This document shows positions 5,166-43,524 of a stretch of 64,000 nt of DNA, in pieces; positions within the stretch are counted from its first letter, which is position 1, and every line of letters starts with the position of its first letter. This stretch comes from Blastococcus sp. DSM 46786 (GTDB lineage Bacteria > Actinomycetota > Actinomycetes > Mycobacteriales > Geodermatophilaceae): contig NZ_FOAO01000014.1 of the NCBI RefSeq assembly GCF_900109665.1, positions 62,001 through 126,000 of the forward strand, written 5' to 3'. A program made the position numbers and the translations under genes. Below the pieces are notes generated by a model, which ran no database searches, was not told the DNA's origin, and worked only from the letters and a program-made list of their open reading frames with translations.

Positions 5166-6656
5166 ATGTCCTCAGCCACCGCCGCCCCGCCCACGCCCCG
5201 CACCCGCCGGCCGGCGTGGCTCTCGCCGACGACCGCCCGCACCGAGGTGCTCGCCGGCCTCGTCGTCGCCCTCGCCCTCATCCCGGAGGCGATCAGCTTC
5301 TCCATCCTCGCCGGGGTCGACCCGCGCGTGGGCCTGTTCTCCTCGTTCGTGATGGCCGTCGTCATCGCCTTCACCGGCGGCCGCCCGGCGATGATCACCG
5401 CCGCCACCGGCGCGATCGCGCTCGTCGTCGCCCCCCTGGCCCTCGAGCACGGCGTCGAGTACCTGTTCGCCGCCGTCGTCCTCGGCGGGGTCTTCCAGGT
5501 GCTGCTCGCCGCGGCCGGTGTCGCCCGGCTGATGCGCTTCATCCCCCGCAGCGTCATGGTCGGCTTCGTCAACGCCCTGGCGATCCTGATCTTCTCCGCG
5601 CAGCTGCCGCACCTGGTCGACGTCCCCTGGCTGGTCTACCCGCTGGTCGCCGCCGGGCTGGCGATGATCTTCCTGCTGCCCCGGCTGACGGCCGCCGTCC
5701 CCTCGCCGCTGATCTCGATCGTGGTGCTCACCGGTCTCACCATCGCCGCCGGCTGGACCCTGCCGGACGTCGGTGACCAGGGGGAGCTCCCCGACAGCCT
5801 GCCCTTCTTCGGCATCCCGGCGGTCCCGTTCACCTGGGAGACGCTGACGATCATCGCGCCCTTCGCGCTGGGCGTGGCCCTGGTCGGGTTGATGGAGTCG
5901 CTCATGACGGCGAAGCTGGTCGACGACCTCACCGACACAGGCTCGGACAAGATGCGGGAGTCGTGGGGTCAGGGCGTGGCGAACGTGGCGTCCGGCTTCT
6001 TCGGCGGCATGGGCGGTTGCGCGATGATCGGCCAGACGATGATCAACGTGAAGTCCGGCGCCCGGACCCGGCTGTCGACGTTCCTCTCCGGCATCTTCCT
6101 GCTGATCCTCGTCGTGGCGCTCGGCGACGTGGTCGCGATCATCCCGATGGCCGCCCTGGTCGCCGTCATGATCTTCGTGTCGATCGCCACCTTCGACTGG
6201 CACAGCCTGCGCACCATCCACCGGATGCCGCGCAGCGAGACGACGGTGATGCTCACGACCGTCGCCGGCACGCTGATCACCCACAACCTGGCCATCGGGG
6301 TCGGCGTCGGCGTCCTGGTCGCCTGCGTGCTCTTCGCCCGCCGGGTGGCGCACCTCGTCGAGGTCACCAGCGTCCTCGACCCCGACGGCGGGACGCGCGT
6401 CTACTCGGTCCACGGCGCCCTGTTCTTCGCCTCGAGCAACGACCTCGTCTCCCAGTTCGACTACAACGGCGACCCGGAGAGCGTCGTGGTCGACCTGTCC
6501 GACGCGCACGTCTGGGACGCCTCGACCGTCGCCGTGCTCGACGCGATCACGCACAAGTACGGGATGCGCGGGAAGACGGTGGAGTTCGTCGGGCTCACCG
6601 GCCACTCGGCCGACCGGTTCCAGCGGCACACCGGCCGGCTCGCCGGGGCGCACTGA
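5166..6656 (+). CDS. SulP-family anion transporter with STAS domain
   Basis: 496 residues. I start at the ATG at 5166 because the frame upstream is proline/arginine-rich and resembles noncoding DNA. The first transmembrane block has the SulP signature VVALALIPEAISFSILAGVDP, then about ten to twelve helices to residue 390. A STAS domain occupies roughly 400-490 (VHGALFFASSNDLV, VVVDLSDAHVWDASTVAVLD). Family members move sulfate, bicarbonate or other anions, usually with Na+ or H+. This one cannot be assigned a substrate; no cysteine-synthesis or carbonic anhydrase gene is adjacent. The next gene, a MerR regulator, overlaps its stop codon. Confidence 0.88.
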   Translation: MSSATAAPPTPRTRRPAWLSPTTARTEVLAGLVVALALIPEAISFSILAGVDPRVGLFSSFVMAVVIAFTGGRPAMITAATGAIALVVAPLALEHGVEYLFAAVVLGGVFQVLLAAAGVARLMRFIPRSVMVGFVNALAILIFSAQLPHLVDVPWLVYPLVAAGLAMIFLLPRLTAAVPSPLISIVVLTGLTIAAGWTLPDVGDQGELPDSLPFFGIPAVPFTWETLTIIAPFALGVALVGLMESLMTAKLVDDLTDTGSDKMRESWGQGVANVASGFFGGMGGCAMIGQTMINVKSGARTRLSTFLSGIFLLILVVALGDVVAIIPMAALVAVMIFVSIATFDWHSLRTIHRMPRSETTVMLTTVAGTLITHNLAIGVGVGVLVACVLFARRVAHLVEVTSVLDPDGGTRVYSVHGALFFASSNDLVSQFDYNGDPESVVVDLSDAHVWDASTVAVLDAITHKYGMRGKTVEFVGLTGHSADRFQRHTGRLAGAH

Positions 6657-39045: not shown

Positions 39046-40176
39046 GTGCGCGACGAGCTGCAGGAGCTGGTCGACGAGGTGTCCCGGGTGCTCGGCGCCC
39101 CCGCCACGCTGGAGGACGCCGGCTTCACGCTGCTGGCCTTCTGCGCGCACGACGACAGCGGGGCCGATCCCATGGACGCCGTCCGCACCCGATCGATCCT
39201 CACCCGCGGCTCCACCCCCGAGACCCGGCGCTGGTTCGAGGACTTCGGCATCGCCTCGGCGACCCGGCCGATGCGGACACCGGCCGACCCCGCGGCCGGC
39301 GTGCTCACCCGGCTGGTGCTGCCCGTCCGCCACGAGGACCGCACCCGCGGCTACCTCTGGCTGCTCGACGACGGGCGCATCGACCCCGACGACGACGCCG
39401 ACCCGGCGCTGCGCCGCGCGCTGGACCTGGCCGCCGACGCCGGCCGCACGCTGGCCGGCCGGCCCGCCGACGACCTCGGGCAGGTGCTCGCCGACGCGCT
39501 GACCGGCCGGCCGGCGGCACGGGCGCAGGCCGCCCTGCGGCTCGGCGACCGGCTGCCCGCCGGGGGTGCCCAGGTGCTGGTCGCCCTCTGCCCCGCCGAC
39601 GGCTCGCCGGCGCCGGGCCGGCCGCTGCCCGGGGCAGGCGCGGTGGCCACGCTCCTCGACGACGGGATCGCCGTGCTCGTCCCGCTGCCGTCGCCCGCGG
39701 ACCTGCGCCCGGCGGGTGCGCTCGCCGCGGCGTCCCTGGCCGCCCTGCCGGCCGGCAGCACCGCCGGCGTCTCGTCGGCCCGCCGCGGCACCGGCGATCT
39801 GCCCGGCCAGTGGGCCGAGGCCCGGGCGGCGGCACGGGTGGCCGCGGCGGTCGGCCGGTTCTACCCCGTCGCCCGCTGGGGGGAGCTCGGCGGGTGGCGG
39901 GCGGCCACGGCGCTGCCCGGACCCGACCCGGTGCTGGCCCCGCTGCTCGCCGACCCGGTCCTCACGACGACGGCGGAGACGTTCCTCGACTGCGCCGGCA
40001 GCGCGGCCCGGACGGCGGCGGCGCTGCACGTCCACCGGCAGACCCTGTACTACCGACTGGGCCGCATCGCGGCGCTGACCGGACTGGACCTCGCCGACGG
40101 CGACGCACGCCTGCTCCTGCACGCCGGTCTGCGCGCCGCCCGGCTCTCCGGAGGGCCCCGGCTCGACCGCCCGTGA
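39046..40176 (+). CDS. PucR/CdaR-family regulator, likely proline-responsive
   Basis: 376 residues, GTG start with GGAGGGGG 7-8 bases upstream. The N-terminal half holds a sensor-like region (1-120). The C-terminal PucR helix-turn-helix is plain: FLDCAGSAARTAAALHVHRQ then TLYYRLGRIAALTGLDL at about 320-360. PucR-type regulators activate catabolic genes in response to the substrate; position next to pruBA makes proline the likely inducer. This is inference from context. Confidence 0.85.
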   Translation: MRDELQELVDEVSRVLGAPATLEDAGFTLLAFCAHDDSGADPMDAVRTRSILTRGSTPETRRWFEDFGIASATRPMRTPADPAAGVLTRLVLPVRHEDRTRGYLWLLDDGRIDPDDDADPALRRALDLAADAGRTLAGRPADDLGQVLADALTGRPAARAQAALRLGDRLPAGGAQVLVALCPADGSPAPGRPLPGAGAVATLLDDGIAVLVPLPSPADLRPAGALAAASLAALPAGSTAGVSSARRGTGDLPGQWAEARAAARVAAAVGRFYPVARWGELGGWRAATALPGPDPVLAPLLADPVLTTTAETFLDCAGSAARTAAALHVHRQTLYYRLGRIAALTGLDLADGDARLLLHAGLRAARLSGGPRLDRP

Positions 40177-40191
40177 TCACCGACCGTCACC

Positions 40192-40197
40192 TACTCT
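40192..40197 (+). promoter_or_regulatory. -10 box for the heme oxygenase transcript
   Basis: TACTCT, 8 bases before the ATG at 40206. It suggests the heme oxygenase-phytochrome pair has its own leaderless transcript as well as any read-through from the PucR gene. Confidence 0.4.
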
Positions 40198-40205
40198 CCA
40201 TCTCG

Positions 40206-40847
40206 ATGGCTGCGGGAGACATGGCTGCGCAGGTGGAGCACCCCCGCAGCGGGCACGACGACGTCCTGCGCGCGCTGCGCACCGGGACGGCCGGGGAGCA
40301 CCAGCTCCTCGAGGACACCCTGGACCTGCTCGACCCGGAGCTGGACCGGGCACGGCTGGCGCACGTGCTCGGCCTGATGCACGGCTTCTGGACGGCGGCC
40401 GAGCGCGGGCTGGACGAGTGGGCCGCCCACCACCCCGCCGACGCCGCGCGGGTGGACTGGGCCCACCGCCGCCGGGCCGGGCTGTTCGCCGCGGACCTCG
40501 CGACGCTGGGCGCCCCCGTGCCCGGCGCGGCACCCGAGCTGCCGGCGGTCCCCGGCACCGACGAGGCGCTGGGCCGGCTCTACGTGCTTGAGGGCTCCAC
40601 CCTCGGCGGCACGTTCATCGACCGGCACCTCGCCGCGCTGCCCCGCCTGGCCGGCGTCCGCCTCCGGGCCTTCTCGCCCTACGGCGGCGAGACCGGCGCG
40701 ATGTGGGCCGCCTACCGCCGGGTCGCCCGGGCGCACGTGGCCGCGGGTGGGGACGCCGAGCGCGTCCTCGGCGCGGCGCGCGACGCGTTCCGCGCGCTCA
40801 CCGGGTGGTGCCGGCCCGCCGCGCGGGCGCAGGCGGTCGGGGCGTGA
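40206..40847 (+). CDS. bphO: Biliverdin-forming heme oxygenase
   Basis: 213 residues from ATG 40206. A GTG at 40173 overlapping the PucR stop is also in frame. The chain is all-helical, with the likely proximal heme ligand His32 in AGEHQLLEDTLDLL, and EGSTLGGTFIDRHLA and FSPYGGETGAMWAAYRRVA near the distal helix, as in bacterial BphO enzymes. It opens heme to biliverdin, iron and CO. Its stop overlaps the GTG of the bacteriophytochrome gene, so the chromophore maker and its user are translated together. Confidence 0.88.
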   Translation: MAAGDMAAQVEHPRSGHDDVLRALRTGTAGEHQLLEDTLDLLDPELDRARLAHVLGLMHGFWTAAERGLDEWAAHHPADAARVDWAHRRRAGLFAADLATLGAPVPGAAPELPAVPGTDEALGRLYVLEGSTLGGTFIDRHLAALPRLAGVRLRAFSPYGGETGAMWAAYRRVARAHVAAGGDAERVLGAARDAFRALTGWCRPAARAQAVGA

Positions 40848-43210
40848 TCGAGGCCGGGCAGGAGGTCGGGTTCCTGGCCCCGGGCGAACCGGTGGACCTC
40901 ACCAACTGCGAGCGCGAACCCATCCACGTCCCGGGCAGCATCCAGCCGCGGGGCGTGCTGATCGCGGTGCGCGACCCCGACTGGATCGTCCAGCAGGTGT
41001 CGGAGAACCTCGAAGACCTCACCGGCGTGGACTGGCGGCAGGCGCTGGGCCGGCCGCTGACCGAGGTCATCGGCGTCGCGCCGGCCGATGCGGTGGTCCG
41101 CTCGGCGAGCGCCTTCGGCGACCTGCGCGAGCGCAACCCGGTGGAGATCACCCTCGACGTCGCCGGCGAGCCGGTGCCCGTCGACGCCCTCCTGCACCGC
41201 ACCGTGGTCGACCCCGGCCCGGTGCGCCCGGTGCACGGCGAGCCCGTCGCCGTCCCCGAGGAGTCGGCGCCGGTCACCACCCTCGTCGTCGAGCTGGAGC
41301 CGGCGCGCGGGCCGCGGCCGTTCTCCTTCCCGAACACGTACCAGGCGGTGCGCAGCACCGTCGCCGCCCTGGACCGGGCCACCGGCCTCCAGGAGCTCTA
41401 CGACATCACCGCCCGGGCCGTGCGCGCCCTGACCGGGTTCGACCGGGTGATGGTCTACCGCTACGACGCCGACTACAACGGCGAGGTGGTGGCCGAGGCG
41501 AAGGCGCCGCACCTCAACTCGTTCCTCGGCCTGCACTACCCGGCCTCGGACATCCCCGCCCAGGCGCGGGCGTTGTACGAGAAGAACTGGATCCGGCTGA
41601 TCTCCGACGTCGACTACGCGCCGGTGCCGATCCGGCCGGCGGACCACCCGGCCAGCGGCCGGCCGCTGGACCTCACCTACTCCGCCCTGCGCAGCGTCTC
41701 CCCCGTCCACGTGGAGTACCTGCACAACATGGGCGTGCGGTCCTCGATGTCGATCTCCCTGCTGCGCGGCGACACGCTGTGGGGCCTCATCGCGTGCCAC
41801 CACTACGACGGTCCGCACGCGCCGCCCTACGCCACCCGGGCCGCGGCCGAGTTCCTGGGGTCGACGCTGTCGGTGCGGCTGATCGACCGGGCGCAGGAGG
41901 ACGAGTTCGACCGGGCGCTGCGCGCACGCTCCACGCTGGCGTGGCTGACCGCCGCCGCCATGGACGAGGAGCGCCCGCTCACCGAGACGCTGCTCGGCTC
42001 GCCCAGCCTGCTCGACCTGCTCGACGCCGACGGGGTCGTGCTGTGCCTGCAGGGCGCCCGGGGGGCTGCCGGCGCCGGGATCCCGCCTGCCCTGGCCGAC
42101 GCGATCGCCGCATGGGCCGCGGCCCGCGCCGAGGACGTCGTCGCCACCGACGCGCTGGCCGCGGCCGCGCCCGGGATCGGCGCGGTGGACCCGGCGTGCG
42201 GGGTGCTGGTGCTGCCGCTGCCGGAGGGCCAGTACGTGCTGTGGTTCCGCGGCGAGGCCGTGCGGCACGTCGACTGGGGCGGGGATCCGCACAACAAGGC
42301 GATCGCCGAGCGCGAGGGCGCGGACGTCCGGCTCAGCCCCCGCAGGTCCTTCGAGCGCTGGCGCGAGACCGTCCGCGGCCGCTCCGAGCCGTGGACGGCG
42401 CAGGAGACCCGCGAGGCCGCCGAGCTGCGCACCCACCTGCTGGAGGCGCTGTACGCGCGTTCGCGCAGCATCGTGCGCGCCGCCGAGACCCTGCAGCGCA
42501 GCCTGCTGTCCGACCCGCCGGAGCCCGACCACCTGGAGGTGGCGGTGCGCTACGTGCCGGCCGCGCGGGAGGCCCAGGTGGGCGGCGACTGGTACGACGT
42601 CTTCGAGCAGCCCGACGGCTCGACGGTGCTCGTCATCGGCGACGTCGTCGGCCACGACACCCAGGCCGCGGCGACGATGGCCCAGCTGCGCGGCCTGCTG
42701 CGCGGCATCGCCTACGACAGCGCGGCCGGCCCGGCCACCGTGCTGTCCCGGCTGGACGCGGCGATCGAGGGGCTCGGGCTCGGCGCCATGGCGACCGTGC
42801 TGGTCGGCCGCCTGGACCGGCCGGCGGGTTCGGCCGACGACCGCAGCCGGCTGCGCTGGGCCACCGCCGGGCACCTGCCGCCGCTGCTGGTCGCGCCCGA
42901 CGGCTCCCAGCAGCTGCTGGTGCCCGACCGCCCCGGCCTGCTGCTGGGCGTGGATCCCTCGCTGCCCCGCGCCGAGCACGAGACGGACGTCCCCGGCGGC
43001 TCGACGCTGCTGCTCTACACCGACGGGCTGGTAGAGCGCCGTGACCAGGTGTTCGACGACGGCGTCGACCTGCTGGCCCGGGCGTTCGCCGGGCTGCGCC
43101 ACCTGCCGGTGCCCGAGATGTGCGACGCGCTCATCGAGCGGCTGCTGCCCGAGGGCGGGGAGGACGACGTCGCGCTCGTCGCCGTCCGGCTGCGGTCGCC
43201 GCACGGCTGA
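40844..43210 (+). CDS. bphP: Bacteriophytochrome with PP2C/SpoIIE phosphatase output
   Basis: 788 residues from GTG 40844, overlapping the bphO stop (GTGA). The N-terminal Cys22 in TNCEREPIHVPGSIQPRG matches the biliverdin-attaching Cys of DrBphP. A PAS domain spans about 20-125. A GAF domain spans about 155-330, with PASDIPAQARALYEKNWIRL and the chromophore-pocket His region PVHVEYLHNMG. A PHY domain spans about 335-520, with the tongue motif PRRSFERW. The output is a PP2C phosphatase (about 555-788) with the metal motif GGDWYDVF, then VVGHDTQAAATM and a late GGEDDVALVAVRL. There is no histidine kinase domain. Red/far-red light may thus gate dephosphorylation of a Ser/Thr-phosphorylated partner. 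Confidence 0.92.
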   Translation: MIEAGQEVGFLAPGEPVDLTNCEREPIHVPGSIQPRGVLIAVRDPDWIVQQVSENLEDLTGVDWRQALGRPLTEVIGVAPADAVVRSASAFGDLRERNPVEITLDVAGEPVPVDALLHRTVVDPGPVRPVHGEPVAVPEESAPVTTLVVELEPARGPRPFSFPNTYQAVRSTVAALDRATGLQELYDITARAVRALTGFDRVMVYRYDADYNGEVVAEAKAPHLNSFLGLHYPASDIPAQARALYEKNWIRLISDVDYAPVPIRPADHPASGRPLDLTYSALRSVSPVHVEYLHNMGVRSSMSISLLRGDTLWGLIACHHYDGPHAPPYATRAAAEFLGSTLSVRLIDRAQEDEFDRALRARSTLAWLTAAAMDEERPLTETLLGSPSLLDLLDADGVVLCLQGARGAAGAGIPPALADAIAAWAAARAEDVVATDALAAAAPGIGAVDPACGVLVLPLPEGQYVLWFRGEAVRHVDWGGDPHNKAIAEREGADVRLSPRRSFERWRETVRGRSEPWTAQETREAAELRTHLLEALYARSRSIVRAAETLQRSLLSDPPEPDHLEVAVRYVPAAREAQVGGDWYDVFEQPDGSTVLVIGDVVGHDTQAAATMAQLRGLLRGIAYDSAAGPATVLSRLDAAIEGLGLGAMATVLVGRLDRPAGSADDRSRLRWATAGHLPPLLVAPDGSQQLLVPDRPGLLLGVDPSLPRAEHETDVPGGSTLLLYTDGLVERRDQVFDDGVDLLARAFAGLRHLPVPEMCDALIERLLPEGGEDDVALVAVRLRSPHG

Positions 43211-43230: not shown

Positions 43231-43503
43231 TCAGCCGCCCGGCGCGGTGAACCGGGGGGTCAGCCCGTCGTCGGGCGGGCCGCCCCGGCCGGGCAGCGGG
43301 CGCTCGTCCTCCGCCGCGCGGACCACGGCGATGGTGTCCAGCGGGTCCGGCGGCCCGGCGGAGCGCCCGCCGCGCTCGAGCGCGGCGAGCAGCCGCTCCT
43401 CGTCGGGCGCGAGGTCACCGGGGCCCAGCCGCCCGCCGGGGCTGCCCGCGTCGGAGCCCGACGCCATCGCGGTGTCGGGCGTCGGGTCGTCCGGGGCGCT
43501 CAT
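43231..43503 (-). CDS. Small hypothetical, probably disordered protein
   Basis: 90 residues from ATG 43503, with GAGGAA upstream. It is rich in Gly, Pro, Asp and Ser (MSAPDDPTPDTAMASG), with one helix-like segment APDEERLLAALERGG. No domain is recognised. It lies 21 bases after the SDR gene on the same strand and may be co-transcribed with it. Confidence 0.5.
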   Translation of the reverse strand: MSAPDDPTPDTAMASGSDAGSPGGRLGPGDLAPDEERLLAALERGGRSAGPPDPLDTIAVVRAAEDERPLPGRGGPPDDGLTPRFTAPGG

Positions 43504-43524
43504 GCGGGAGTTCCTCATGGTCGG

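Follow-up and report, generated by a model that had tools for sequence, protein, structure and literature searches.

How a bacteriophytochrome bearing a phosphatase rather than a histidine kinase conveys a light signal is the question raised by a locus of Blastococcus sp. DSM 46786, found in a 64,000-nucleotide stretch of contig NZ_FOAO01000014.1 (positions 62,001 to 126,000; hereafter the window). In this locus, the heme oxygenase gene bphO overlaps bphP, which encodes a phytochrome fused to a SpoIIE/PP2C domain. Taken as a whole, the analysis makes it reasonably likely that bphO and bphP constitute a two-gene light-sensing unit, i.e., a predicted red/far-red sensor with its pigment enzyme, which would signal through an RsbV-like STAS protein to a SigB/F-type sigma factor, the preferred partner being a STAS protein encoded in a gene cluster termed C2 elsewhere in the genome.

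The locus was compared with its relatives, of which the best 80 of 173 were kept (52 from Geodermatophilaceae, 26 from Mycobacterium/Mycolicibacterium and one each from Motilibacter and Sanguibacter), and, within the genus, across 23 Blastococcus genomes including that of the window (G000; 4.59 Mb, 47 contigs). Its principal features are the following:

40206 to 40847, + strand: bphO, heme oxygenase of 213 amino acids (ATG at 40206, TGA at 40847; Pfam PF01126), the presumed source of biliverdin
40844 to 43210, + strand: bphP, bacteriophytochrome with SpoIIE/PP2C output, 788 amino acids (GTG at 40844, TGA at 43210)
40844 to 40847, + strand: GTGA, the 4-bp overlap of the bphO stop and the bphP start, kept at this precise length in 46 of 48 loci (counting that of the window)
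40907 to 42460, + strand: PAS_2-GAF-PHY photosensory module, residues 22-539, assigned with Pfam and Foldseek
40907 to 40909, + strand: codon of Cys22, the predicted biliverdin attachment site, which pairs with the Cys of VDLTNC in 6bap
42398 to 42505, + strand: single predicted helix leading from PHY to PP2C, residues 519-554 (AlphaFold2 model; constant spacing)
42611 to 43192, + strand: SpoIIE/PP2C phosphatase domain, residues 590-783 (Pfam), with D600, D727 and D774/D775 inside and D582 and D585 just upstream

The overlap of the two genes, already pointed out in the original prediction, is confirmed and is shared by most relatives in which both genes are adjacent. Of the 80 relatives fetched, 47, all Geodermatophilaceae, have bphO next to bphP, and 45 of them share the 4-bp overlap. 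Across the 46 loci with exactly 4 bp, the overlapping sequence is ATGA or GTGA, the exceptions being L129 (gap of 73) and L142 (gap of 7). Because it is kept in 46 of the 48 bphO-bphP loci, this overlap represents more than chance. The bphO-bphP locus is real and conserved, and it is probably functional. BphO itself belongs to the Pfam Heme_oxygenase family (E 3.4e-07, 30.7 bits for a cut-off of 23, scanned without the first Met), and both relatives of solved structure that were found (1sk7 and 1j77) are heme oxygenases.

BphP contains PAS_2 (22-120), GAF (182-340), PHY (370-539) and SpoIIE (590-783) domains in this order, each above its Pfam cut-off. It also possesses a Cys before the PAS domain, a DIP motif and a PRxSF tongue, which we take to be the signature motifs of bacteriophytochromes. 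BphP of the window was aligned with 39 relatives out of the 80 (L133, whose translation holds a stop, being left out), which showed that Cys22, D236, H289, W478-G480, P499, R500, S502, F503, D582, D585, D600 and D727 are kept in 40/40 members. The PASDIP (233-238) and PRRSF (499-503) motifs vary at A234, S235 and I237 and at R501, respectively; D774/D775 show no variation among the 30 rows that extend to them, the remaining 10 ending earlier. When compared with solved structures, the photosensory part has phytochrome 6bap as its best match (3.1e-110) and the PP2C part has Rv1364c as its nearest one (3ke6, E 1.5e-23); the 50 Foldseek matches listed are all phytochrome structures and none is informative on the PP2C half.

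The output domain is that of a group II PP2C phosphatase, since the SpoIIE match is full length (profile positions 1-191 of 192) and the metal aspartates are intact. The protein does not reach the NCBIfam equivalog NF041576 ('bacteriophytochrome BphP'), scoring 326.4 bits where more than 1040 bits along 622 positions are expected; the match covers residues 15-534 (profile positions 6-507), and the photosensory part alone is in common. The claims that Cys22 and the DIP and PRxSF motifs are retained and that the output is a complete PP2C/SpoIIE domain, not a histidine kinase, hence both stand. Collectively, these sequence data support the view that BphP is a phytochrome other than a histidine kinase, with a PP2C/SpoIIE output that looks intact. 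For such a protein, we infer that it binds biliverdin and that light switches the phosphatase, as we do for the direction of this switching and for the substrate.

The junction between both halves is constrained in length. Trp517 and the column of the LQRSLL motif are 32 residues apart in 40/40 members and also in 10/10 paralogues (see below), and the AlphaFold2 model built from the 40-row alignment (mean pLDDT 77.1, pTM 0.49) predicts a continuous helix over this junction. The invariant spacing and the single helix agree with the switching through a coiled-coil linker that has been reported for RsbU.

Based on these elements, the following mechanism can be proposed. BphO would convert heme to biliverdin, which BphP would bind through Cys22, and BphP would switch between one form absorbing red and another absorbing far-red light. 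The dimer of the photosensory part would alter the helical linker (residues ~519-554), and the PP2C domain at the C-terminus would change its activity as a result, in the manner put forward for RsbU-type phosphatases. This domain would dephosphorylate an RsbV-like STAS protein at its conserved serine; once dephosphorylated, the STAS protein would bind an RsbW-like anti-sigma kinase and free a SigB/F-type sigma factor.

Which STAS protein could fulfill this role is not apparent from the window itself. Its sole PF01740 (STAS) match, at 6387-6626, lies inside a 554-amino-acid open frame which may be a SulP-type transporter; being part of this frame, it was rejected as an RsbV-like partner. No PF13581 match (anti-sigma-type ATPase) was found in the window, and the locus does not encode a STAS protein and an anti-sigma factor along with the phosphatase. 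The statement that no partner is encoded beside bphP is thus true for the window, but does not hold among relatives in general. In the mycobacterial ones, a STAS gene is present within 1 kb of bphP in 12/26 loci, eight being divergent upstream and four convergent downstream with a HATPase_c_2 gene behind, and in Sanguibacter a STAS gene lies downstream of the phytochrome-PP2C gene. All 12 STAS matches of the mycobacterial flanks fall in the 51 kb that lie no further than 1 kb from bphP, the other 233 kb being free of them, a clustering with a probability of 1e-9 if the loci were independent, which was given little weight as only two arrangements are represented.

A further STAS linkage is provided by a paralogue. 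The host genome contains two PHY domains, each followed by a SpoIIE sequence, and the second protein, 43-46% identical to the window type, occurs in 22 of the 23 Blastococcus genomes (21 listed, plus a broken copy in G011). A STAS gene lies upstream of the paralogue, with an RsbW-like HATPase_c_2 gene divergent (STAS in 12/12 genomes, HATPase in 11/12, absent from G021), and, judged by coordinates, the STAS gene adjoins the paralogue in 22/22 genomes where the latter was seen. The paralogue is split over frames in G000:C7 (L083:7490-9797) and in G011 (L232:7047-9322), which may reflect decay or sequencing error; ten others were examined, nine being open throughout and one (L079) having a stop in the matched region. 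Altogether, STAS neighbours recur in four different arrangements, which suggests, from gene order and from few independent events, that a STAS protein is the target.

The search of the genome for RsbV- and RsbW-like partners, advocated in the original prediction, led to the C2 cluster (L198:3138-8274, G000:C2). It comprises a SigBFG sigma factor gene overlapping a HATPase_c_2 gene, a SpoIIE-HATPase-STAS fusion of 585 amino acids, a gene for topoisomerase IB and a stand-alone STAS gene, and RsbV-, RsbW- and SigB/F-like genes are accordingly all present. The sigma factor (298 bits, cut-off 234) is the only SigBFG protein of the genome above cut-off. The separate STAS protein (G000:C2:7882-8274) is 93-99% conserved in 23/23 genus genomes and passes TIGR00377; the C2 and C7 kinases fall far under the RsbW equivalog cut-offs. 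Among the nine STAS proteins of the host, that of C2 was the best match for 13/13 STAS proteins encoded beside window-type relatives, with margins from 1.5 bits (Sanguibacter) to ~28 bits over the next, while those beside the paralogue had the C7 STAS as best match in 5/5 cases tested, one being that gene itself. Inspection by eye showed that a [G/D/N]-S-[A/S]-G motif, whose serine presumably corresponds to the position phosphorylated in RsbV/SpoIIAA, is kept in 4/9 PF01740 matches (C2, C14, C7:77.7 kb and C7:25.8 kb); in C13 and in the fusion of C2, a serine is present at this position but the glycine is missing. The RsbV-like STAS protein at G000:C2:7882-8274 is therefore our preferred candidate target of BphP. 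The idea of an anti-anti-sigma-like partner is strengthened, such a protein being the likeliest target in view of the STAS neighbours of the paralogue and of the mycobacterial relatives.

Several observations weigh against this assignment. At the cut-off used, no STAS match was found beside bphP or in the flanks (up to 6 kb) of the 52 Geodermatophilaceae relatives, nor is there a STAS neighbour in 14/26 mycobacterial loci, and the 12 mycobacterial loci having one represent two arrangements, not 12 events. Eleven Modestobacter/Goekera-type loci (L136, L131, L137, L138, L140, L141, L144, L145, L146, L151 and L154) offer just HATPase_c_2-type genes, ~2-6 kb downstream of bphP; the one scanned with Pfam, L136:11620-12636, is a MEDS-HATPase_c_2 protein, possibly anti-sigma-like. 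The C2 STAS may be the best match merely as the most typical STAS of the host, and some margins are small. In addition, residue 605 makes the motif GHD in 18/18 Geodermatophilaceae rows and GHG in the other 22, GHG being the usual reading of this PP2C motif; because of this G to D change, the catalytic behaviour may be different. Finally, the linker helix comes from a monomer model with a pTM of only 0.49.

It has also to be considered that the same device acts on another STAS protein, either the C7 STAS of the paralogue or a further serine-bearing one (C14, C7:25.8 kb), with an output other than general stress. Several host STAS proteins do keep the serine motif, and both phytochromes share the same linker spacing and probably the same heme oxygenase. 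The C7 STAS nevertheless goes with the paralogue, which it adjoins in 22/22 genomes, and G008, where the window type is kept, contains no close relative of it. In this genome neither the paralogue nor a close C7 STAS relative was found, the absence of the paralogue resting on a listing that missed the broken G011 copy, plus the missing STAS; if a STAS protein is the target, the window type of G008 must hence use one other than C7. We regard such a retargeting as rather unlikely, and an action of the light-controlled PP2C domain on a non-STAS substrate, for example a Ser/Thr kinase target, as improbable. The latter would agree with the lack of STAS neighbours in Geodermatophilaceae and in the mycobacterial loci mentioned above and with the GHG to GHD change of the clade, but a STAS gene recurs beside relatives in several arrangements, and Rv1364c, the closest protein of solved structure for the PP2C part, groups with partner-switching phosphatases, as does the SpoIIE family of Pfam. 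That the phosphatase is constitutive or mainly a scaffold, the photosensor responding to redox or temperature instead of light, is very improbable indeed, given the invariance of the chromophore residues in all members aligned and the 4-bp overlap of bphO with bphP in 46 of the 48 loci having them side by side.

The proposal that BphP acts on the C2 STAS can be extended to a two-channel red/far-red stress switch, in which two phytochrome phosphatases would be served by one heme oxygenase, the paralogue acting on the C7 STAS/anti-sigma pair and the window protein on the core RsbV of C2. This extension is put forward tentatively, the odds being somewhat against it. If true, light would set general stress resistance without histidine kinase or response regulator.

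The supply of biliverdin bears on this scheme. The host genome has one PF01126 match. Across the genus, PF01126 matches were obtained in 14/23 genomes, and a BphO homologue of almost full length (residues 17-206 of 213 or more) occurs once per genome in 23/23, G013 adding a weak partial match; domain scans undercount this family. The window-type bphP is present in 20/23 genomes (19 besides that of the window, at 74-90% identity) and was not found in G001, G004 and G021. G004 and G021 keep bphO and its neighbours together with a bphP remnant matching residues 758-784 and 756-784. These 3' remnants beside bphO span 27 and 29 residues (L224:4982-5062 and L225:5095-5181); in G001, bphO is present and no bphP match was found. 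Because bphO is kept in three genomes devoid of the coupled receptor, a shared biliverdin supply is suggested, one heme oxygenase probably serving both phytochromes.

Outside the genus, tblastn revealed no bphO-type gene in the available flanks of the mycobacterial, Motilibacter and Sanguibacter loci. Motilibacter and Sanguibacter have a different, strongly scoring heme oxygenase elsewhere in the genome. Likewise, four Modestobacter loci lack bphO (L138, L144, L145 and L154; L181 ends there), and the two of these four genomes which were scanned contain a different strong heme oxygenase elsewhere (199.3 and 195.1 bits). A PF01126 scan of two mycobacterial genomes gave no match, which is not evidence that heme oxygenase is missing, since PF01126 misses bphO in 9/23 Blastococcus genomes. 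A 97-amino-acid ABM-domain gene lies directly 3' of the phytochrome-PP2C gene in the eight mycobacterial loci having a divergent STAS gene (L173 (8238-8531), L158, L161, L163, L167, L169, L172 and L180). A role as substitute heme oxygenase was considered but is not supported: the protein has an ABM domain, two weak PDB matches and a match to an isomerase model that stays below the cut-off. In Motilibacter, a GGDEF-EAL gene (L165:6508-8748) occupies the position directly 3' of the phytochrome-PP2C gene.

The surroundings of the two genes contain three additional features:

40192 to 40197, + strand: TACTCT, -10-like hexamer located 8 nt upstream of the ATG of bphO (TANNNT conserved in most loci)
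39046 to 40176, + strand: PucR-type (HTH_30) regulator (Pfam), divergent from a proline dehydrogenase gene
43231 to 43518, - strand: small open reading frame (95 amino acids) without Pfam match, with a relative in 41/52 Geodermatophilaceae loci

In 42/48 loci, a candidate bphO start is preceded by a TANNNT hexamer at a distance of 4-12 nt, which amounts to 7, 8 or 10 nt in 35 of the 42. The background is 188 of 29,384 ATG/GTG triplets (0.64%; one strand, all 81 sequences), and the per-locus chance is a few times above 0.64% because several starts per locus were allowed. In actinobacteria, a -10-like hexamer at such a spacing goes with leaderless starts; bphO thus seems to have its own promoter, with a putative leaderless bphO-bphP mRNA. 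The alternative start GTG 40173, chosen by the gene caller and overlapping the stop of the regulator, was discarded, as it is not kept in most relatives and the hexamer precedes ATG 40206. Among relatives, the distance from the regulator to bphO ranges from overlap to more than 1 kb, and in several the regulator was not found or is remote. A three-gene operon was rejected on account of this variability, and the PucR-type regulator is probably a separate transcription unit. Relatives of the 95-amino-acid frame usually adjoin a short-chain dehydrogenase gene.

The host actinobacteria live on stone and in soil. If the proposed pathway is true, phytochrome-PP2C proteins would be red-light-controlled RsbU equivalents in these organisms, would offer a test of whether sensors can be exchanged among PP2C phosphatases, kinases and cyclases by means of a shared helical linker, and could become red-light tools.

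The wiring, at first regarded as different from that of most bacteriophytochromes, is not novel. SpoIIE/PPM phosphatases were recorded in 2022 as one effector class of PAS-GAF-PHY proteins (PMC9587094, legend of Figure 2), and BphP, which has the same PAS-GAF-PHY-phosphatase layout, falls within this class. The available text on the class gives neither gene neighbourhood nor heme oxygenase linkage, which are described here for BphP, nor a partner or an assay (PMC9587094). The domain combination is already known; the additions made here are the evidence from gene linkage and a heme oxygenase that is probably shared. Our literature search, which left most subscription papers and all preprints uncovered, recognised no assayed phytochrome-PP2C protein, and one may exist.

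In the phytochrome diguanylate cyclases such as PadC, a coiled-coil linker of defined length is likewise used, the output being GGDEF and not PP2C, according to the text available (PMC9587094). RsbU has been reported to be switched via a coiled-coil linker, and sensor exchange among PP2C, kinase and GGDEF outputs has been proposed in the same study, as far as its text was accessible, the word phytochrome being absent from its main text (PMC12143880). In the RsbU and RsbP/RsbQ systems of Bacillus subtilis, the general stress response is likewise started by PP2C phosphatases, and no phytochrome is involved. In this organism, the accessible text indicates that red light activates SigB through RsbP/Q, RsbP itself as light sensor being a proposal only (PMC3019169). 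HltA of Synechococcus, a GAF-PP2C phosphatase, has been tied to high-light tolerance, with a speculative light-GAF-PP2C-RsbV model; it is described with a single GAF domain, with no PAS or PHY mentioned in the text available, whereas BphP has PAS-GAF-PHY (PMC9430166). For photocobilin, interaction networks suggest, in the portion of the article available, that it may meet STAS and SpoIIE proteins (PMC10979010). Rv1364c, among the documented general-stress phosphatases in the accessible text of PMC12143880, is a PAS-PP2C-RsbW-RsbV fusion and provides the closest solved PP2C domain to that of BphP. In Rv1364c, the sensor is a PAS domain and the partners are fused in one chain, a layout to which the SpoIIE-HATPase-STAS fusion of the C2 cluster is nearer; in BphP, by contrast, the sensor is a phytochrome and the proposed partners are separate and remote.

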